A stretch of 64,000 nucleotides of DNA from Halobaculum sp. MBLA0147. Lineage in GTDB: Archaea > Halobacteriota > Halobacteria > Halobacteriales > Haloferacaceae. The stretch is from positions 186,001 through 250,000 of the forward strand of contig NZ_JBGKAD010000001.1 of NCBI RefSeq assembly GCF_041361345.1, written 5' to 3'. Every line of letters starts with the position of its first letter. Within the stretch, counting starts at the first letter, position 1. Made by a program: the position numbers and the translations under genes. Below, in pieces: positions 5,546 to 14,336 of the stretch. Below the pieces are notes generated by a model, which saw nothing but the letters and a program-made list of their open reading frames with translations, was not told the origin of the DNA and searched no databases.

Positions 5546-5685
5546 ACCGGCGACCGGGTCGGCGGCGAGTAAGTCGTTGCGGTCGCGTGCGGTGTGTCGT
5601 CGGTGGAGTCGCCGGTTCGCGTACGGGCGGCCGCTTCGGGGGAGTCACCGCGGTCGCGTGACGTGCGTCAGACACCGGCGTGAGG

Positions 5686-5693
5686 ACTTATCC
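5686..5693 (+). promoter_or_regulatory. TATA-like box for the HerA-like gene
   Basis: ACTTATCC is centred about 27 bp before ATG 5717, a standard leaderless spacing. Confidence 0.6.
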
Positions 5694-5716
5694 GGGCGGC
5701 GTGGGTGACTCCGGGT

Positions 5717-7651
5717 ATGAGCGAGGAGACGGAGACGATCACCGTCGCCGACATCAGCGACGGGCCGGGCGGGGCGTCGAACCTACAGCCGGGGACGCCG
5801 ATCTCGCTGCCGGTGGTCGAGATCCTCACCGGTCGCGGGTTCGTCACCGGCAAGTCCGGGTCGGGCAAGAGCAACACCGCGTCGGTGATCATCGAGAACC
5901 TGCTGGACAACAACTTCCCCGTGCTGATCGTCGACAGCGACGGCGAGTACTACGGGCTGAAAGAGGAGTACGAGATCCTCCACGCGGGCGCCGACGAGGA
6001 GTGTGACATCCAGGTCTCGGACGAACACGCCGAGAAGCTCGCCCACCTCGCCTTGGACCAGAACGTCCCGATCATCCTCGACGTGTCCGGCTTCTTGGAC
6101 GAGGATGTCGCCAACACCCTCGTCCGGGAGACGGCACGCCACCTCTTCGCCAAGGAGAAGAAGCTGAAGAAGCCGTTCCTGATGCTCGTCGAGGAGTGTC
6201 ACGAGTACATCCCCGAAGGCGCGGGGCTCGACGACACCGGCCGGACGCTGATCAAGATCGGGAAACGCGGCCGGAAACACGGCCTCGGGATCGTCGGGAT
6301 CTCCCAGCGGCCGGCGGACGTGAAGAAGGACTTCATCACCCAGTGTGACTGGCTCTGTTGGCACCGCCTCACCTGGGACAACGACACGAAGGTCGTCAAG
6401 CGGATCTTGGGCAGCGAGTACGGCGAGGCCATCGAGGAGGTCGACGACGGCGAGGCGTTCCTGATGACCGACTGGTCGGAGTCGATCCGCCGGGTCAAGT
6501 TCCACCGCAAACAGACGTTCGACGCGGGCGCGACGCCCGGCCTCGACGACTTCGAACGACCGGACCTGAAGAGTGTCTCGGGGGATCTGGTGTCGGAGCT
6601 GCAGGAGATCACCGACGAACAACAGCGTCGCGAGTCGGAGTTGGCGGACCTCAGACAGGAACTCGACGAGAAGCGCCAGCGGATCTCGGAACTCGAACGG
6701 GAACTGGAGGAGGCCCGCGACATGTCCGCGATGGCCGACGACTTCGCGCAGGCGCTGTTACGGAAGGCGGACGCCTCCTACCGCGGCGGCTCGGGGTCGA
6801 ACCCCGCGAAGGCTCAACTGGACCAGTTCACCGGGGCGGACGACGGTGGACAGACGGACGACGCCGAGCGAGTAGACGACACCGAGCAGGCTGACGACGC
6901 CGACCACGAAGCCACCAGCGGGCAGGCGGACGACGGCGGCGACGAGGGCGAGTCGCCCGCTGTCGTCGAGGGGAGTGACGAGTCCGTGACCGTCGACGGA
7001 GACAGTCGTGGCGAGGCCGTCGTCGACGCGACTGTGGACGACGTGGACGCAGCCGAGGCCGCGGCGAGTGACGGCGGATCACGGCGACCGTCGGCGGACA
7101 CGTCGATCCCGACGGCCGGACTCGGGTCGGAACCGACGACCAGCGCGACCGCCTCGTCGACGACCACGAGCGGAACGGCACGATCCGCACGCGAGGCGAC
7201 GGGTTCGATCCCGGAGGTGGGCGATGTGGACCTGCGAGCGGCAGCGAGTCGCTCCGGGTTCCGCGAGCACGCCGGGATCGCCGCCTTCGCCGCCGGGACG
7301 GAACTCCGGAGTCGCGAGGTCGTCGTCCAGGGGTTCGTCGACGCCATCGAGTCGTTCGACGAGGTGACCCGTGCGATGTTGGCCCACTACCGCGACAGTG
7401 GGAACGCGACGCCGGTCGCGGCACACGTCGCCGCCGGTGGCTCGGGACGGCGCGAGTTCGCCTACGCCCGCAACGGCACCCTCCGTCGAGCGGGCGTGAT
7501 CGAGCACGCCGGTCGCGGACGCTACCGCTACCGGCTCCCGGCGATCGTCCGCCGTGTCTACGGCGACGGTGCCGACGAACAGGAGATCGCCGAGACGGTC
7601 TCGATCATCGAAGGAAAGACGGGGCTCGCCGGCGAAGCGACGCCCGAGTGA
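5717..7651 (+). CDS. HerA-like (DUF87) ATPase with coiled coil and C-terminal domain
   Basis: 644 residues. The FtsK/HerA-superfamily ATPase is N-terminal: Walker A GKSGSGKS at 45-52, an IVDSDGEYY strand near 71-79, Walker B FLMLVEE at 154-160, and a C-terminal GKRGRKHGLGIVGISQRPADV segment typical of HerA-type proteins. A coiled coil (about 290-345) and a low-complexity acidic linker (about 375-490) precede a C-terminal region (about 505-640) that may be winged-helix. The family translocates DNA; here the partner is unknown. No NurA nuclease is nearby, so this is probably not the canonical HerA-NurA resection pair. A 4-bp GTGA overlap with the next gene argues for co-translation. Confidence 0.85.
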   Translation: MSEETETITVADISDGPGGASNLQPGTPISLPVVEILTGRGFVTGKSGSGKSNTASVIIENLLDNNFPVLIVDSDGEYYGLKEEYEILHAGADEECDIQVSDEHAEKLAHLALDQNVPIILDVSGFLDEDVANTLVRETARHLFAKEKKLKKPFLMLVEECHEYIPEGAGLDDTGRTLIKIGKRGRKHGLGIVGISQRPADVKKDFITQCDWLCWHRLTWDNDTKVVKRILGSEYGEAIEEVDDGEAFLMTDWSESIRRVKFHRKQTFDAGATPGLDDFERPDLKSVSGDLVSELQEITDEQQRRESELADLRQELDEKRQRISELERELEEARDMSAMADDFAQALLRKADASYRGGSGSNPAKAQLDQFTGADDGGQTDDAERVDDTEQADDADHEATSGQADDGGDEGESPAVVEGSDESVTVDGDSRGEAVVDATVDDVDAAEAAASDGGSRRPSADTSIPTAGLGSEPTTSATASSTTTSGTARSAREATGSIPEVGDVDLRAAASRSGFREHAGIAAFAAGTELRSREVVVQGFVDAIESFDEVTRAMLAHYRDSGNATPVAAHVAAGGSGRREFAYARNGTLRRAGVIEHAGRGRYRYRLPAIVRRVYGDGADEQEIAETVSIIEGKTGLAGEATPE

Positions 7652-7959
7652 CGCTGAAACTACCGCGCGCCGAGACCGCCGCCGACTCGCCGGCCGACGC
7701 GGCGTGGACGCTCCCCCAGCACGCCCGGCTCATCGTCTACGAGACGGACGACGGTAACGAACTGTTGACGATCTACGACTGTGGCGCGGCCCAGAAGCCG
7801 CCCTCGGGCCAGACCGTCGGCGTCCTCGGACGAGTGCGTGCCGACCACGAACTGGAACGGACGCCGACCGGCTACGTGGTGAAGATGCGAGAGCCGGCGC
7901 GACTGGTGCGGCAGGAGACCGATCCGGACCACTTCGTCGTGGAACGGCGCGAGGGGTGA
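7648..7959 (+). CDS. Small conserved-type hypothetical protein, partner of HerA-like ATPase
   Basis: 103 residues from GTG 7648, overlapping the HerA-like stop by 4 bp (GTGA), so it is almost certainly in one operon with it. The sequence is a compact beta-rich domain: ARLIVYETDDGNELLTIYDC, then GQTVGVLGRVRADHELERT and GYVVKMREPARLV. I recognise no family or active site. An accessory role for the ATPase is inferred only from gene order. Confidence 0.75.
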   Translation: MTLKLPRAETAADSPADAAWTLPQHARLIVYETDDGNELLTIYDCGAAQKPPSGQTVGVLGRVRADHELERTPTGYVVKMREPARLVRQETDPDHFVVERREG

Positions 7960-7990
7960 GTCGACGCGCTCACCACGTGCAGTGGGGTAG

Positions 7991-7999
7991 CCTTTTCAC
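7991..7999 (+). promoter_or_regulatory. TATA-like box for the AAA/TOPRIM pair
   Basis: CCTTTTCAC is centred about 29 bp before ATG 8024. It indicates that the pair has its own promoter, separate from the HerA-like operon. Confidence 0.55.
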
Positions 8000-8023
8000 C
8001 GGAGCCGCGGCAACGTGGGGTAG

Positions 8024-9175
8024 ATGAGTCACGTCGAACGCGTCCACATCTCTGACTTCAAGTGTCTCTCCGAGGTAGATCTCGAGTGCGGACAGTTCAA
8101 CGTGCTGACGGGCCGCAACGGGACTGGGAAGACCTCGATTCTGGAGGCGATTCGACTGGCGCACGATCCGACGGCGTTGGAGTCGTACAGGTCTGCCGTC
8201 GGGAATCTGATCGCGGTCGGAGAAAAATCCTTGAGCGTGGAGCTAACGACGGTGGATGACTCTCTACGTTTTCAACTTGATTGCCCAGATGCTAGCGAAA
8301 CGCACTCTTTGATGGCTGAAGCGGCTGTTGGCCACACTATGATCGAAAAGCCATCTGAATTAGTATTTTTGTCTAGTTATTATAATGATATTGGAGAGCA
8401 TGTAGAATGGATTGAGGATATGTTTCAGAAGACAGAGACTGAACCCGTCAATATGGCCGTCAGGGTTCAAACTGAGGACTACGACGACTTCTTCGTCTCT
8501 CTCGGATCCAGTGTCACTATCTCTTTATCCGAAATGGGGGACCGGCCAGAGTCACCCTACGAGGACAATACAGAAGGGGTACACATTAGAAGATTTGGAG
8601 AATTCACTGGAGAACCCCCAGCGGTAGAGCCGATCCGTCTAGTCGATCCAGCCGGCCAAACACCGGTACGGTCGCCAGAGGACTCCGAACTCCGCCGCGT
8701 CCGTGTCCGCGACTTCCTCCGCGAGCACGATATCCTCCCGAACCTCGAGTCGTTCGGCTTCGACGAACTCGTGTTCGACGAGAACGGGAGCCACCACTCC
8801 ATCCCCTACGAGTTCCTCGGTGAGGGGACGAAGACGGTCGTCGAAGTCGTATGGCAACTCCTCGCCGAGGAAGAGATTCCGGACGTGATCCTCTTGGAAG
8901 AGCCGGAGAACCACCTCCACCCGGGGTACGTGAAGGAACTCGTCGTGTTCCTGATCGAGTTCGCCCGTGAGGAGGACGTGCAACTGTTCGTCACCACGCA
9001 CAACGTCGACTTCCTGACGGAGTTCTTCAACGACGCCACCGTCGGCGACCACACCGATTGGCTCCGCGAGGAGTTCCGACTGATCCAGACCACCGAACTG
9101 TCGCCCAAACAGTTCGACTACGAGCGAGCACGAGAACACGTCGAAGACCTCCAGTTGGACCTCCGAGGCCTATGA
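8024..9175 (+). CDS. OLD-like AAA (ABC-type) ATPase, mosaic composition
   Basis: 383 residues. The start MSHVERVHISDFKCLSEVDL is the typical first strand of RecF/OLD-type ATPases. Walker A GRNGTGKT is at 30-37, a GEGTK signature-like loop at 266-270, Walker B DVILLEEPE at 287-295 and a switch His in TTHNVDF (His326). The gene lacks its own nuclease domain; the TOPRIM protein is encoded next, with an ATGA overlap. This matches the split OLD/PARIS-type arrangement (ATPase plus TOPRIM partner) used in phage defence; the function here is inference. Codons for about residues 66-206 are AT-rich and unlike both ends, as if a central sensor region had been exchanged. Confidence 0.85.
   Translation: MSHVERVHISDFKCLSEVDLECGQFNVLTGRNGTGKTSILEAIRLAHDPTALESYRSAVGNLIAVGEKSLSVELTTVDDSLRFQLDCPDASETHSLMAEAAVGHTMIEKPSELVFLSSYYNDIGEHVEWIEDMFQKTETEPVNMAVRVQTEDYDDFFVSLGSSVTISLSEMGDRPESPYEDNTEGVHIRRFGEFTGEPPAVEPIRLVDPAGQTPVRSPEDSELRRVRVRDFLREHDILPNLESFGFDELVFDENGSHHSIPYEFLGEGTKTVVEVVWQLLAEEEIPDVILLEEPENHLHPGYVKELVVFLIEFAREEDVQLFVTTHNVDFLTEFFNDATVGDHTDWLREEFRLIQTTELSPKQFDYERAREHVEDLQLDLRGL
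8221..8640. other. AT-rich segment inside the AAA ATPase gene
   Basis: By hand count about 196 of 420 bases are G or C (47%), with 8341-8400 at 18 of 60 (30%). Blocks at 8101-8220 are about 65%. The segment uses codons that are rare in its surroundings (TTA, GTA, TTT, TAT, AAT, ATT). The frame stays open throughout, so this is a foreign or diversified segment in an intact gene, not decay. Confidence 0.85.
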
Positions 9176-9771
9176 GCGGACACGTCGTGTTCACCGAGGG
9201 TCGCAACGACGTGTATTTCGTGCAGAAGGTGCTCGAACGGTGTAACGAGTCACCCGACGTGACGAAGTACGTCGCCGAGGACGAGCACAGGCAGACGATC
9301 TCCGTAGGAGAACAGGAGCGAGCACTCCGGGACTTCCGCCGTGACGATCACGACCACTTCCTCAAGTCCGAGGGCGGCGACGGCGGGCTGTACGACGTCT
9401 TCGCCTACTCTGCGGAGAAGATTGTCACGGGACAGTTCGACGCGACGCTCGTCTTGGACCTCGACGAACGTGGGTTCGAGCCGGTCGTCGGCGAGGTCCG
9501 AGAGAGCCTCACCGAGGAGTTCGACGGCTCGATGGAGTGGGACGACGGAGAACAGGTGGCTACGGAGGGTGACCTCTGGGTCGGTGAGGCGACGCTCGCG
9601 GACGTGAACACCGGCGACAGTTCGACGTTCGCGCTGGTGACGTTCGAAGACGACCTGGAGGCGGCAGTCGGCTGTGCGTCGACCGACGACCGGAGTGAGC
9701 GGTTCCGAGCGATCCGCGAGTACGCGCACCGGAGACCCGTGATCGAGGCGTTCCTCGAACTGTACGACTGA
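9172..9771 (+). CDS. TOPRIM-type nuclease partner of the AAA ATPase
   Basis: 199 residues, ATG overlapping the ATPase stop (ATGA). The N-terminus HVVFTEGRNDVYFVQKVLE is a TOPRIM first motif with the catalytic Glu (Glu9), and LVLDLDERG carries the DxD pair (Asp96, Asp98). The rest is acidic and ends in a short helical tail. TOPRIM partners of OLD-like ATPases cut nucleic acid when released or activated. The protein is shorter than the AriB-type partners I know of, so it may be a minimal or different TOPRIM lineage. Composition is host-like, unlike the centre of the neighbouring ATPase. Confidence 0.78.
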   Translation: MSGHVVFTEGRNDVYFVQKVLERCNESPDVTKYVAEDEHRQTISVGEQERALRDFRRDDHDHFLKSEGGDGGLYDVFAYSAEKIVTGQFDATLVLDLDERGFEPVVGEVRESLTEEFDGSMEWDDGEQVATEGDLWVGEATLADVNTGDSSTFALVTFEDDLEAAVGCASTDDRSERFRAIREYAHRRPVIEAFLELYD

Positions 9772-9825
9772 TACGACTTCGACCACCACGCCCGCTCCCG
9801 CGTCAGTGAGCTCGGGCCACTCCCC

Positions 9826-10872
9826 TCACCGGTCCAACTCGTACGGATCGTTCCGGTCTACGTCCGCACGGGCCTGGGCACGCTGCTCCGCGAGGTGTGG
9901 CGGCACCTCCGCGAACACCGGATCGAACAGCTCCTCGGGCTCCGGGCGCGGGACGGACTCGGCCGTCGCGACCGCCTCCGCCAACTCCTCGTCGGCGGCC
10001 TCGCGCGCCTCGGTGCGGAACGACTCGTCGACGATCCCCTGGTCGAGACACCACTCCTCGAAGCGGTCGACCGGGTCCGCGAGTCGCCACTCGGGGAGGT
10101 CCGGGTCGCCGTCGCGGTACTGACTCGGGTCGTCGGCGGTGGTGTGGGCGCCCTGCCGGTACGTCAGCGCCTCGACCAACACGGGGTCCCCCTGCCGCGC
10201 GTCGTCCAGGGCGTCGGTGACGACCGCCCGCACCGCCAACGGGTCGTTGCCGTCGACGCGGACGCCGTCGATGCCGTAGGCGTCGGCCTTGTCCGCGATG
10301 GTGTCACTGGCCGTCTGGCGGTGTCGTGGTAACGAGATCGCCCACCCGTTGTTCTCACAGAAGAACACGGACTGGGCGTCGAACACGCCGGCGAAGTTCA
10401 ACCCCTCGTGGAAGTCGCCCTCGCTCGTCGCGCCGTCGCCGAGACAACACAGCGCCGCCCACGGCTCGTCGTTGTGGGCGGCGTACATCCCCGCGCCGGC
10501 TGCGTGGGGGATCTGGGAGGCGATGGGGACCGCCTGCGGGAACACACGTTCGTCGTGGTCGGAGTGGTACTCCGGGAACCCGCGCCGGAACAGGAGGATG
10601 TCCGACATCGGGACCCCGCGAGCGATCTGGAGCGCGTTCGAGCGGTACGTCGGGAACAACACGTCCCGGCGCGCCATCGCGTGGGCCGCGCCGACCTGTG
10701 CGGCCTCCTGTCCCTCGTAGGGTGGGTAGCCGGACATCCACCCGCGCCGCTGGAGGGCGAGCGCGCGCTCGTCGAACCGGCGCGTCCGGACGAGATCCCG
10801 TAGCGCCGTCCGCGCGTCCGCCTCGTCGAACCGCGTCTCCTCGAGGTCCCGCTCGCCGACGATCCGGTGCAT
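9826..10872 (-). CDS. Thiamine-dependent 2-oxoacid dehydrogenase E1 alpha subunit
   Basis: 348 residues. The ThDP motif is complete: GDGATSEGDFHEGLNFAGVF, then NN about 30 residues on (CENNGWAIS). The phosphorylation-loop region (TYRQGAHTTADDPSQYRD) and the opening YPPYEGQEAAQVGAAHAM match pyruvate/branched-chain/acetoin E1 alpha. It acts with E1 beta, E2 and E3 to decarboxylate a 2-oxoacid to acyl-CoA. No E1 beta, E2 or E3 gene lies next to it, which is unusual. The ATG 10872 start is supported by a TATA-like box 27 bp upstream. Confidence 0.9.
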   Translation of the reverse strand: MHRIVGERDLEETRFDEADARTALRDLVRTRRFDERALALQRRGWMSGYPPYEGQEAAQVGAAHAMARRDVLFPTYRSNALQIARGVPMSDILLFRRGFPEYHSDHDERVFPQAVPIASQIPHAAGAGMYAAHNDEPWAALCCLGDGATSEGDFHEGLNFAGVFDAQSVFFCENNGWAISLPRHRQTASDTIADKADAYGIDGVRVDGNDPLAVRAVVTDALDDARQGDPVLVEALTYRQGAHTTADDPSQYRDGDPDLPEWRLADPVDRFEEWCLDQGIVDESFRTEAREAADEELAEAVATAESVPRPEPEELFDPVFAEVPPHLAEQRAQARADVDRNDPYELDR

Positions 10873-10895
10873 ACCGCGGGGGTGTCCCGGCGGCC

Positions 10896-10904
10896 GTAAA
10901 AGTT
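10896..10904 (-). promoter_or_regulatory. TATA-like box for the E1 alpha gene
   Basis: On the minus strand AACTTTTAC is centred about 27 bp before the ATG at 10872. Confidence 0.6.
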
Positions 10905-10975
10905 GCCGGACTCCGCGACGAGTCCCCCATCGGACCACCGACTCGTGACGACGACACGACGCCGGGCGCCCGCAG

Positions 10976-11926
10976 TCAGTCCATCGAGGGGACGGGGACG
11001 GCGTCGGCGACGCTGCTCAGTACGTCCCGCCGAGTCGCCCCCTCGATCTCGGCGTCGGCGGTGAGCACGAGTCTGTGTGTGAACACCGGCTGTAACATCC
11101 GTTTCACGTCGTCCGGGACGACGTACTCGCGGCCGTAGATCGCCGCGTACGCGCGTGCTGCCTCGAACAGATGTTGGATCCCACGTGGCGAGACACCCAC
11201 GTCGACGCGACTGTCTTCCCGCGTCGCCCGTCCCAGATCCACGATGTAGTCGCGCACGCCGGGTGCGACGCGGACACCCTCCGGCACCTGCCTGAGTGCC
11301 CGCACGCGGTCCCCGTCGATCACCGTCGACACCGTCGGGATCGAGCCGCTGCGGTCCGCGCGCCGGTCGATCAGCTCTCGTTCGCCGGCGCGGTCCGGGT
11401 AGCCGATGGCCGACTTGATCGTGAAGCGGTCTCGCTGTGCCTCCGGGAGCCCGAACGTCCCCTCCTGTTCGACGGGGTTCTGCGTGGCGATCACGAAGAA
11501 CGGCTCCGGCAGGGCGTGCGTCTCGCCGTCGACGGAGACCTGCCCCTCACCCATCGCCTCCAACAACGCGGCCTGCGTCTTCGGCGGCGCGCGGTTGATC
11601 TCGTCGGCCAGGACGACGTTCGCGAAGATCGGTCCCGGCGCGAAGGTGAACTCCCCGCCGGCCTCGTCGTACACGTTCGACCCGGTGATGTCCGCGGGCA
11701 ACAGGTCCGGGGTGAACTGGATGCGCTTGAACGACAGCCCCAGCGCGTCCGCCAGACTCCGCGCCGTCAGTGTCTTCCCCGTCCCCGGCACGTCTTCGAG
11801 CAGGACGTGCCCCCCGGCGACGACGCCCGTCAACACCGTCGCGAGGAACTCCTCGTCGGCGATCACCGCCGTCCCCACCTCCTCCAACACGGCCCCGGCG
11901 ACCCGGGACGCCTCCTCGACGTTCAT
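10976..11926 (-). CDS. MoxR family AAA ATPase
   Basis: 316 residues. Walker A (DVPGTGKT, 45-52), Walker B (VVLADEIN) with the MoxR signature RAPPKTQAALLEAMGE, sensor 1 (VIATQNPVEQEGTFGLPEAQRDRF) and a C-terminal lid. MoxR proteins are chaperone-like ATPases, often next to DUF58 and von Willebrand-factor genes; neither is present here. Two starts are possible, ATG 11926 and GTG 11935. A TATA-like GGTTTCAAG at 11953-11961 fits either. It is divergent from bioY. Confidence 0.9.
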   Translation of the reverse strand: MNVEEASRVAGAVLEEVGTAVIADEEFLATVLTGVVAGGHVLLEDVPGTGKTLTARSLADALGLSFKRIQFTPDLLPADITGSNVYDEAGGEFTFAPGPIFANVVLADEINRAPPKTQAALLEAMGEGQVSVDGETHALPEPFFVIATQNPVEQEGTFGLPEAQRDRFTIKSAIGYPDRAGERELIDRRADRSGSIPTVSTVIDGDRVRALRQVPEGVRVAPGVRDYIVDLGRATREDSRVDVGVSPRGIQHLFEAARAYAAIYGREYVVPDDVKRMLQPVFTHRLVLTADAEIEGATRRDVLSSVADAVPVPSMD

Positions 11927-12007
11927 CGCCTCCACACGGTTCCGGCGGGGGCTTGAAACCTCGGGTCGCCGTCCGGCCGTCGAGTTACGTCGTCTGTCGA
12001 ATCGGAT

Positions 12008-12028
12008 GACGTTCCGTAACGTCTAAGC
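12008..12028. promoter_or_regulatory. Palindrome abutting the bioY promoter
   Basis: GACGTT-CCGT-AACGTC (12008-12023) is a perfect 6-bp inverted repeat. Its right arm runs into the weak TATA-like region (about 12021-12028, 27 bp before ATG 12052). The position over the promoter suggests an operator, perhaps for biotin control; the regulator is not known from this sequence. Confidence 0.5.
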
Positions 12029-12051
12029 ACGGCTCACCGGAACGCGGTACC

Positions 12052-12636
12052 ATGTCGACACAGTACGACGCGGTCGATCCGGTCGGCGACGAGGTGGTCG
12101 CCAACCTGGCTCGTGCCGCGCTGTTCGCCGCCCTGATGGGGGCGTTCGCGTACGTCTCGTTCCCGAACCCGCTCGCGCCCGGGATTCCGGTGACCTTGCA
12201 GGTGTTGGGTGTGTTCCTCGCGGGGATCATGCTCGGTCCGGCGTGGGGCGCCTTCGCCCTCGTCGTCTACCTCGCGGCCGGCGCGCTCGGCGTGCCGGTG
12301 TTCTCCGGGGGGTCTGCCGGCGTGGGTGCGCTCTTGGGTCCGACCGGCGGCTACCTGTTGTCGTACCCACTCGCGGCACTCGCCGTCGGTGCGGTCGTCC
12401 ACCGCGGCCCGTCGCTGCGGGACTTCCGAGCCGCCAGCACGCCGATCCTCGTCGGTGGGATGGTCGCCGGCACCGCGCTGATCTACGCCGGCGGTGTGCT
12501 CGGACTGATGCTGTTCGGTGACTACGGGCTGGCCGGCGCGTTCACTGCCGGTGTGGTGTCGTTCCTCCCGGTCGAGGCGCTGAAGATCGCCGCCGCCGTC
12601 GGGGTCGTGCGCAGCGAACGGATCGCGGCCGCCTGA
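12052..12636 (+). CDS. bioY: BioY biotin transporter S component
   Basis: 194 residues with about six hydrophobic segments. It matches BioY: AALFAALMGAFAYVSFPNP near the start, PVTLQVLGVFLAGIMLGPAWG, then a GVPVFSGGSAGVGALLGPTGGYLL block that is the family hallmark. BioY is the membrane substrate-binding subunit of the ECF biotin importer. It is followed 6 bp later by the ATPase gene and then the T-component gene, so all three form one operon. A palindrome sits on its promoter. Confidence 0.93.
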   Translation: MSTQYDAVDPVGDEVVANLARAALFAALMGAFAYVSFPNPLAPGIPVTLQVLGVFLAGIMLGPAWGAFALVVYLAAGALGVPVFSGGSAGVGALLGPTGGYLLSYPLAALAVGAVVHRGPSLRDFRAASTPILVGGMVAGTALIYAGGVLGLMLFGDYGLAGAFTAGVVSFLPVEALKIAAAVGVVRSERIAAA

Positions 12637-12642
12637 GGAGTC

Positions 12643-13479
12643 GTGCTCGTCGTCGAGGACCTCGTGTTCGCGTACGACGGCGGTCCGGCTCTCGCTGCCG
12701 CACCCGCCGCGGAGCGTGGTGAAGGCCCGTCGGACGCGCAGACGGGTGAGGCGTCGTCGCAGACACACACGGTCGACGAGCCGTCGCCGTCCGACGACCG
12801 CCCACCGACCGCGGACAGGGTTCTCGACGGCGTCTCGCTGACGGTGCCGGACGGCGAAGTCCTCCTCCTCGCCGGCCCGAACGGCTCCGGGAAGTCCACG
12901 CTCGTCCGCCACTTCGTCGGACTCGCGGAGCCGGACGCGGGTCGGGTCCGCGTCGACGGCGTCGACCCGGTCACAGAGCCGGTGGCGGCACGCACCGCCG
13001 TCGGGATGGTGTTCCAGCGGCCCCGCGACCAGTTGGTCGCCGCGACCGTCGGCGCCGACGTGGCGTTCGGTCCCGAGAACCTCGGACTCGACCGCGCCGA
13101 GATCGACCGTCGGGTCACCGAGGCGTTGGACACGGTCGGGATGACCGGCCGTCGGGACGAACGGGTCGCTGCGCTGTCGGGCGGCGAGCAGGCCCGCGTC
13201 GCACTCGCCGGCGTCCTCGCGATGGAGCCGTCACACCTCGTCTTGGACGAGCCGTTCGTCGGCCTCGACGCGCCGGCACGCGACTCTGTGTTGTCACACG
13301 TTCGGACGCTGGCCGCCACCGACACGACCGTGATCATCGTGACACACGACCTCCGGGAACTCCTGCCGCTCACGGATCGTGTGGTGGTGCTGTCCGACGG
13401 GGAAGTCGCGCTCCGTGCGTCGCCGGAGACTGCTCGCGAGCGACTGCCGGCGTTGGGTGTCAGGGTACCTGAGTCGTGA
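12643..13479 (+). CDS. ecfA: ECF transporter ATPase (BioM/EcfA type)
   Basis: 278 residues. ABC ATPase motifs: Walker A GPNGSGKST (78-86), Q-loop FQRPRDQLVAATV with the ECF-type layout, signature LSGGEQARVALAGVL, Walker B HLVLDEPF, D-loop GLDA and switch THD. It powers biotin import with BioY and EcfT. Unusually, about 45 Ala/Ser/Thr/Asp-rich residues (about 14-58) are inserted between the first strand (VVEDLVFAYDGG) and VLDGVSLTV, where related ATPases have a short turn. The GTGA overlap with ecfT supports tight coupling. Confidence 0.92.
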   Translation: MLVVEDLVFAYDGGPALAAAPAAERGEGPSDAQTGEASSQTHTVDEPSPSDDRPPTADRVLDGVSLTVPDGEVLLLAGPNGSGKSTLVRHFVGLAEPDAGRVRVDGVDPVTEPVAARTAVGMVFQRPRDQLVAATVGADVAFGPENLGLDRAEIDRRVTEALDTVGMTGRRDERVAALSGGEQARVALAGVLAMEPSHLVLDEPFVGLDAPARDSVLSHVRTLAATDTTVIIVTHDLRELLPLTDRVVVLSDGEVALRASPETARERLPALGVRVPES

Positions 13480-14336
13480 CTCCGACCACCGCCCTCGGAC
13501 GACTCGATCCGCGGACGAAGCTCGCACTCCAGGCGGCGGTCGCGGTCGCTGCGTTCCGCCACACCTCGCCGCGCGGGCTGGCGGCGGTCACGCTCCTCGT
13601 CGCGGTCGGTGTCGCACTCACGGGGACGTCGCCGGTGACGCTGTTGCGTCCGTACGTGTTCGTCGCGCCGTTCCTCCTGTTGGGGCCGGCGTTCGCGGCC
13701 GCGGAGCTGGGTCCGCCGTGGATCGACCTCGCGGCGGCCGTCGACCCGGCGTTGGCGAGCTACCGCACCGTCCTCCTGTTGTTGGTCGGGGCCGTCTACG
13801 TGCGGACGACGCCGGTCCGCGAGTCGGAGGCGGCGATCCAGCGACTCGTCCCGGGGCGACTCGGCCGTCTCCTCGGTGTCGCGCTCGGCCTCGTCTTGCG
13901 GTTCCTCCCGCTCGTACGGCGGGAGGTGGTGCGGACGCGGGAGGCGATGCGGACGCGACTCGGCGACGAGCGCCCCCTGCGCGAGCGGATGCGACTGCTC
14001 GTCACCACGTCGCTCGCGAGCACGTTCCGGCGCGCCGACAGGCTGGCCGACGCGCTCCGCGTGCGGTGTCTCGCCTGGAACCCGACGCTCCCGCGACTCC
14101 GGTTCGCGCGACGCGACGTACCCGGGTTGGTGTTGGCGGCGCTGCTCTTCGTGCCGCCGAGTGTGGTGGAGTGGGTGGTCGCCACCACACCGAGCGTGGT
14201 AGAGTGGGTGGTCGCCACCACACCGAGCGTGGTAGAGTGGATGGTCGTCGCCGTGCCGGGTGGCGAGTGGTCGCTCCTCGTGGTTGCCGGCACGACACTG
14301 GTAGTGGGTGTCGTCGTCGACCACGGGAGCGGGTAG
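13476..14336 (+). CDS. ecfT: ECF transporter T component
   Basis: 286 residues, four to six membrane spans. The opening LGRLDPRTKLALQAAVAVAAF is typical of EcfT/BioN/CbiQ. The coupling-helix region contains REAMRTRLGD and ADALRVRCL, which resemble the two Ala-Arg-Gly-like motifs that dock on the ATPase. It couples ATP hydrolysis to BioY. The C-terminal part contains a repeated 11-residue unit (PSVVEWVVATT, 2.7 copies) just before the last hydrophobic span, probably a recent tandem expansion. GTG 13476 overlaps the ecfA stop. Confidence 0.88.
   Translation: MTPTTALGRLDPRTKLALQAAVAVAAFRHTSPRGLAAVTLLVAVGVALTGTSPVTLLRPYVFVAPFLLLGPAFAAAELGPPWIDLAAAVDPALASYRTVLLLLVGAVYVRTTPVRESEAAIQRLVPGRLGRLLGVALGLVLRFLPLVRREVVRTREAMRTRLGDERPLRERMRLLVTTSLASTFRRADRLADALRVRCLAWNPTLPRLRFARRDVPGLVLAALLFVPPSVVEWVVATTPSVVEWVVATTPSVVEWMVVAVPGGEWSLLVVAGTTLVVGVVVDHGSG
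14157..14245. repeat. 33-bp in-frame tandem repeat in ecfT
   Basis: Copies start at 14157, 14190 and 14223 (the last partial). The unit is 33 bp, 11 codons, so copy-number change would not shift the frame. Copies 1 and 2 differ at three positions or fewer. Confidence 0.9.

Follow-up and report, generated by a model that had tools for sequence, protein, structure and literature searches.

A split OLD-like ATPase–TOPRIM gene pair of Halobaculum with an exchanged ATPase core: a probable antiviral conflict system of haloarchaea

Halobaculum sp. MBLA0147 carries adjacent genes for an OLD-like ATPase and a predicted TOPRIM nuclease, and sequence comparison gives good support to the view that the AT-rich core of the ATPase gene has been replaced by recombination or transfer and has a separate, older genealogy than the rest of the ATPase. 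The pair lies in a stretch of 64 kb (hereafter the window) of a 4.29 Mb genome (G000), and represents a family of archaeal split ATPase/TOPRIM pairs bearing an invariant C-terminal DLRG tail. It is probably a conflict system made up of a split OLD-like sensor and a nuclease, most likely antiviral and PARIS-like, with an exchangeable sensing core. Conflict systems with TOPRIM-linked OLD ATPases are already known (PMC12839542), and the archaeal pair with its exchanged core is a variant of these.

The ATPase gene (8024–9175, + strand; 383 amino acids) and the TOPRIM gene (9172–9771, + strand; 199 amino acids) are both intact and overlap by ATGA, as the first-pass annotation had described. The ATPase, the proposed sensor, matches Pfam AAA_21 (4e-25) and AAA_15, and its model (mean pLDDT 74) resembles the heads of SMC, Rad50 and retron PtuA (Foldseek E 1e-9 to 1e-11). 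It consists of a constant N segment (8024–8220, + strand), an exchangeable AT-rich core (8221–8681, + strand; approximately residues 67–219) at the position of the arm or dimerisation insert of ABC heads, and a constant C segment (8682–9172, + strand), an architecture that is also present at other loci of the genus. The core is modelled as low-confidence helices (residues 90–172) in place of the arm. Walker A (GRNGTGKTS, residues 30–38; 8111–8137) is located in the N segment, and the C segment contains the signature-like LGEGTK (8813–8830), the Walker B/D-loop stretch ILLEEPENHLHPGY (8888–8929), which includes Walker B ILLEEPE, and the H-loop TTH (8993–9001); the earlier placement of the Walker motifs in the two ends is therefore correct. 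Walker A, signature, Walker B, D-loop, H-loop and an inserted domain are thus all found, as in an OLD-type ABC ATPase. In the TOPRIM protein, as in TOPRIM nucleases, a Glu follows strand 1 and a DxD follows a later strand; the model (pLDDT 86; no Foldseek match in the PDB below E 0.001) places these residues at the ends of strands. Its conserved acidic and basic residues are E9 (9196–9198), K65 (9364–9366), D96 (9457–9459), D98 (9463–9465) and E163 (9658–9660), and the first-pass assignment of Glu9, Asp96 and Asp98 holds in all 23 relatives.

A predicted TATA-like box, TTTTCA (7993–7998, + strand), precedes the ATPase start codon (8024) by 26–31 nucleotides; TTTATC/TTTATA-like boxes occur at about equal distance from the ATG in paralogues and orthologues (L008, L004, L060, L003). 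The promoter of its own that had been ascribed to the ATPase gene is plausible on this basis, as is a leaderless transcript. The pair is flanked by genes for a HerA-like ATPase, an E1 dehydrogenase, a MoxR-type AAA protein and BioY, which is a housekeeping neighbourhood, and no defence island surrounds it within the window. The HerA-type (DUF87) ATPase upstream (5705–7651) gives no sign of belonging to the system. Gene order 3′ of the pair (9724–14106 compared with L149) differs between the congeners, and 11981–14106 matches the congener G001 in inverted orientation, which implies a rearrangement endpoint close to the pair.

The composition of the core is unique in the window. Its GC content is 46.7% (8221–8640), that of the window 69.8%. 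Of 63,581 segments 420 bases long, only 19 are at or below the core value, and every one of them starts at 8185–8224, on the core. The lowest 60 bases (8341–8400) have 30.0% GC, and 60-base stretches equally rich in AT are found in the window only on the core. These values agree with the hand counts of the first-pass annotation for the middle of the gene (about 47 and 30%); its figure of about 65% for the ends was too high, the measured values being 59.9% for the left end, 60.9% for the right end and 63.7% for the TOPRIM gene. GC3 is 76 in the N end, 46 in the core and 83 in the C end, and is likewise low in the cores of L011 (40) and L032 (37), the ends beside these three cores having 76–91. 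Intergenic DNA neighbouring the pair has 64–72% GC.

The ends had been regarded as a conserved, host-like scaffold. Their conservation stands, but a host-like origin does not, because the whole pair is AT-rich in several other haloarchaea: it has 37–38% GC in Halorubrum californiense, Natrarchaeobius and Halopiger, whose genomes have about 60–70%. Wholly AT-rich pairs of this sort form a pool on which core exchange could draw, and in the genus of the window the core looks like the younger piece, beside ends that seem to have been ameliorated. No donor of the window core itself was found in class genomes, viral contigs or plasmids; the only matches are the diverged core of a congener (28%, 2e-10) and one match in G116 at 0.008. 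The Halorubrum californiense pair (L063:10001–11900; 37% GC) has abrupt edges in DNA of about 70% GC, like a compact two-gene insertion. A PADLOC 'pVip' match in the flanks was set aside as probably MoaA, because a gene beside the L063 pair is Radical_SAM/Mob_synth_C. The Halopiger pair (L067:8182–9348) is located near a modification-dependent restriction enzyme of AspBHI/Mrr type.

The boundaries of the core are also visible in alignments between species. Comparison of the window with the syntenic locus of G001 by blastn gives nucleotide identities of 87% (5654–6838), 78% (7286–8222) and 79% (8681–9724); the alignment breaks off at 8222 and restarts at 8681, which coincides with the independently defined AT-rich segment, and a gap at the core is also present at two other orthologous loci in the genus. 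Searches of whole genomes with the ATPase return family matches that cover the first 80 or so residues and then about 190 to 383, but not the middle. Residues 1–75/80 of the N segment are 71–73% identical to the congener orthologue. Conserved ends with a divergent centre, the pattern that the first-pass annotation expected along ATPase homologues, were obtained in six comparisons: protein identities of ends and core are 82 and 31% for the window ATPase and its syntenic congener orthologue (L001/L008), 90 and 28% for L011/L032, 81 and 27% for L033/L060, 75 and 20% for L004/L033, 73 and 26% for L004/L060, and 80 and 23% for L053/L056, of which three share members of one locus and so are not all independent.

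Silent sites distinguish replacement from rapid protein evolution. After correction for composition, third-position identity between the window ATPase and its congener orthologue is 0.48 (ends) and 0.00 (core); across the six comparisons it is 0.36–0.55 in the ends and 0.00–0.07 in the cores, where all 95% intervals include zero, although core alignments at 20–30% amino-acid identity are uncertain and single silent-site values carry uncertainty. First and second positions of the cores retain homology (0.14–0.34). Among fourfold-degenerate sites at which the amino acid is unchanged, 36 of 109 are identical in the cores and 305 of 513 in the ends (Fisher p 5e-7). Some pairs within the family have no sign of exchange; the control L012/L050 has corrected values of 0.43 in the ends and 0.39 in the core, and L003/L061 is intermediate (0.44 and 0.24).

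ABC heads generally vary in their arm and dimerisation inserts, so that fast divergence in place of a weakly constrained or positively selected insert, without any exchange, might produce a divergent centre. L012/L050 and L003/L061 do fit such a process better, their amino-acid identities being 67 vs 87 and 52 vs 72 with silent identity retained. Faster amino-acid evolution alone is nevertheless insufficient for the six comparisons, because their core silent sites are at chance (those of the ends are not) and the control retains silent identity. A core GC3 of 46 amid intergenic DNA of 64–72% GC and the reciprocal tree conflict at a single Halorussus site (see below) also argue against divergence in place, which we consider quite improbable as a general account. 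A diversity-generating retroelement or hypermutation was rejected as the cause, since about 450 bases are replaced, with a different base composition and with tree conflict at related loci. The recombination or transfer of the centre proposed in the first-pass annotation is thus upheld by silent sites, by reciprocal tree conflict and by synteny that is broken exactly at the core.

The tree conflict was found at one site in the Halorussus group, which is occupied in three genomes with a shared flank of 80–85% identity (L053, which has the same genus code as L056; L056, identical with L064, of Halorussus amylolyticus; and L068 of Halorussus ruber). L056 is close to L053 in the C end (85%, compared with 65% to L068) and in the TOPRIM protein (71% compared with 31%), but close to L068 in the core (62%, compared with 21% to L053). 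The AU test rejects the grouping of L056 with L068 on the C end plus TOPRIM (delta lnL 73, p 0.0001) and, for the core, that of L053 with L056 (delta lnL 22, p 0.003). Because the groups were named after the identities had been seen, these p-values somewhat overstate the case, although the crossover in identity is a large one. The core and the block of C end plus TOPRIM therefore have different trees at this site. Recombination via the conserved ends is the best account of the separate core genealogy, in the window as well as here. The TOPRIM cassette appears to have been exchanged too at some loci, for example at the Halorussus site, and in L033/L060 the TOPRIM protein (39%) is far more diverged than the C end (84%), or exchanged. 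Trees of the ATPase ends and of TOPRIM otherwise agree in their main groups, which implies that the partner genes usually travel together.

The OLD dimerisation domain sits inside the ABC domain (PMC10568477) and the host genome has four paralogous loci, so that the insert could be a dimerisation domain that is exchanged to keep paralogous ATPases unmixed, with the trigger read elsewhere. Exchange is also found in the Halorussus-group genomes G172 and G196, in each of which one copy was found and there would be nothing to avoid; we therefore regard this reading as unlikely. Put forward tentatively, with somewhat less than even confidence, is a further reading: the pair may be a modular archaeal immune receptor, in which sensing core and TOPRIM effector are swapped independently at fixed sites, with the nucleotide-binding segments serving as homology arms, to yield new sensor/effector combinations.

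Conservation in the family is concentrated in the catalytic parts and the tail. Residues invariant in 25 ATPase relatives are K13, G30, N32, G35-K36-T37-S38, P261, G266, G268, E292-E293, H299-P300, Y302, T324-T325-H326 and D379-L380-R381-G382. A TOPRIM gene of about 190–215 codons is located directly downstream in 23 members, which are all those whose partner gene is readable whole, and E9, G10, D13, K65, G69, D96, D98, F158 and E163 are invariant in these; E9, D96 and D98 are invariant or nearly so in a further 18 wider relatives. The C-terminal tail, DLRG plus one residue before the stop (9158–9172, + strand), is invariant in all 25 members from haloarchaea and in all 20 from archaea more widely, including relatives from Thermoplasmata, methanogens and Nitrososphaerota, and several bacterial split pairs finish in DLR or similar, (D/E)LR, followed by an overlapping TOPRIM-like gene. 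The tail is a natural candidate for the contact of the ATPase with TOPRIM. A purely translational signal was rejected, since Asp and Leu are constant as residues but are encoded by freely varying codons. The Arg-Gly codons are mostly purine-rich (Shine–Dalgarno-like), and because the third base is a purine in 32 of 37 Arg codons, they may add a ribosome-site role for the TOPRIM gene.

Several known systems resemble the pair. The best matches of the ATPase are defence models, namely AriA of PADLOC (1.4e-25), NsnB, AbiLi, PDC-M38A (1.7e-21) and mad3 (1.6e-18), but these have a generic ABC head in common, and TOPRIM is the more telling partner. The window TOPRIM alone has no match in Pfam; among relatives, DUF3226 matches 9 of 18 wider TOPRIM proteins (best 7e-6) and OLD-like_TOPRIM matches at 2e-4. 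PDC-M38B matches 7 of 23 TOPRIM proteins (best 5e-7), the window protein itself at 0.045 and over 22 residues only, so that kinship with PDC-M38, a PADLOC phage-defence candidate made up of an ATPase and a TOPRIM protein, is plausible for the family but uncertain for the window pair. mad4 matches the TOPRIM of some relatives (6.5e-4); the pair thus resembles MADS in mad3 and mad4, whereas the multigene MADS cluster is absent among the window neighbours checked. The literature search returned no paper on PDC-M38 and no useful description of MADS.

In PARIS (AriA/AriB, Class 4 OLD), a hexameric AriA sequesters AriB, which is set free by a viral trigger such as Ocr. PARIS is similar to the haloarchaeal pair in having split adjacent genes for an OLD-type ATPase and a TOPRIM protein with Glu and DxD, and in this system the ATPase AriA is the sensor and releases a TOPRIM tRNase (PMC12409363). 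However, neither DUF4435 nor AriB matches the window TOPRIM (DUF4435 matches 1 of 23 relatives, at 0.015, and DUF3226 is the better match), and in the literature searched neither the DLRG tail nor an exchanged core is described for PARIS. Of the PARIS-type pair named in the first-pass annotation, the split ATPase plus TOPRIM arrangement is therefore retained; a PARIS-like working is proposed, but membership of PARIS is not supported by sequence, because the TOPRIM is nearest to DUF3226/PDC-M38B and not to AriB. Class 4 OLD has been reported as restricted to bacteria, and the OLD clade U8 of Halobacteriales was left uncharacterised (PMC12796447). Class 1 and 2 OLD, Gabija GajA and Cran1 share the ABC head with an inserted domain and the two-metal TOPRIM logic; those proteins are fused, whereas the haloarchaeal genes are split, and unlike in Gabija and Class 2 OLD no UvrD-like helicase adjoins the pair.

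The distribution is patchy: at E 1e-20 with the ATPase as query, the pair was found in 17 of 394 genomes of the class and 8 of 171 of the family, and so is not the housekeeping gene of every haloarchaeon that would have spoken against the first-pass interpretation. Two of the four loci in the host genome are broken. L150 (G000:C1:369400–371213) is disrupted by a frameshift within its AT-rich core and by a TAG codon in TOPRIM. At locus 3, the ATPase frame is open in both orthologues, L151 (G000:C1:1663408–1665260) and L155 (G001:C1:~2726500–2728316), but TOPRIM is cut short by in-frame stops that differ between the two species. The ATPase core of this locus is conserved (54%), with no exchange, and this combination of TOPRIM loss with an unexchanged core is suggestive with regard to mechanism, but small. 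A third congener has a remnant of the ATPase N segment alone, without core or C segment (L158, G003:C83; 6614–6754, − strand).

Searches for mobile carriers gave little. The whole ATPase has no match in phages and a single weak one in plasmids (Methanocaldococcus), a second family member (L049) has none in plasmids, viral contigs yield distant matches that are mostly P-loop, and prophage or plasmid carriage of the pair was not found in these searches. An anti-plasmid or selfish-element conflict system, or a toxin–antitoxin-like module with the same ATPase–nuclease logic and no viral trigger, would fit the anatomy and mobility of the pair, and ABC and TOPRIM modules do occur in plasmid defence (MksBEFG/Wadjet), but nothing was found that favours plasmids over viruses, and we judge this rather unlikely. 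A cellular role, in DNA repair or as a cell-cycle nickase, has a precedent in Cran1, an OLD ATPase of Sulfolobales that is a cell-cycle protein, apparently essential and not antiviral (PMC12796447), and synteny between two congeners extends over the locus and its upstream flank. Such a role is very unlikely for the present pair in view of its occurrence in 17 of 394 class genomes, its broken copies and the independent truncations of TOPRIM; Cran1 (Class 5 OLD) is, by comparison, a fused protein that is conserved throughout Sulfolobales, is inherited vertically and tracks the species tree.

Defence is favoured because the distribution is patchy, AT-rich insertions are sharp, copies have decayed and the closest models are defence ATPases and TOPRIM proteins; from distribution, decay, exchange and this kinship we infer an antiviral function. 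The housekeeping neighbours, the failure to find prophage or plasmid carriage and the precedent of Cran1 (PMC12796447) count against defence. In the proposed antiviral mechanism, the ABC ATPase would act as sensor and switch, and TOPRIM as a metal-dependent nuclease effector that is held or licensed by it. The core, at the arm or dimerisation-insert position of SMC, Rad50 and OLD heads, would recognise a viral trigger; recognition would alter the state of the ATPase, which would release or activate TOPRIM, and the activated nuclease would cut nucleic acid and abort the infection. The sensing role of the core is suggested by its position and variability, the core being of low confidence in the model. 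If the core does read the trigger, a swap would shift specificity while ATP hydrolysis and control of TOPRIM are kept intact.

In the literature searched, with most subscription papers outside the search, no description was found of the pair, of the DLRG tail or of an exchange of cores among OLD/TOPRIM systems. For the question of how the ABC-ATPase sensors in OLD, PARIS and similar defence systems detect their triggers, the haloarchaeal loci provide natural domain swaps: orthologous ATPases that occupy one site in sister species have near-identical catalytic parts around cores that are unrelated or diverged long ago. The type I restriction subunit HsdS likewise has constant parts around a segment that is replaced through recombination; HsdS and the haloarchaeal ATPase have no homology, and in the latter the exchanged part is a head insert with a putative role in specificity. 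If the proposed reading is true, an archaeon would retune detection by cassette exchange, as type I restriction trades specificity domains.
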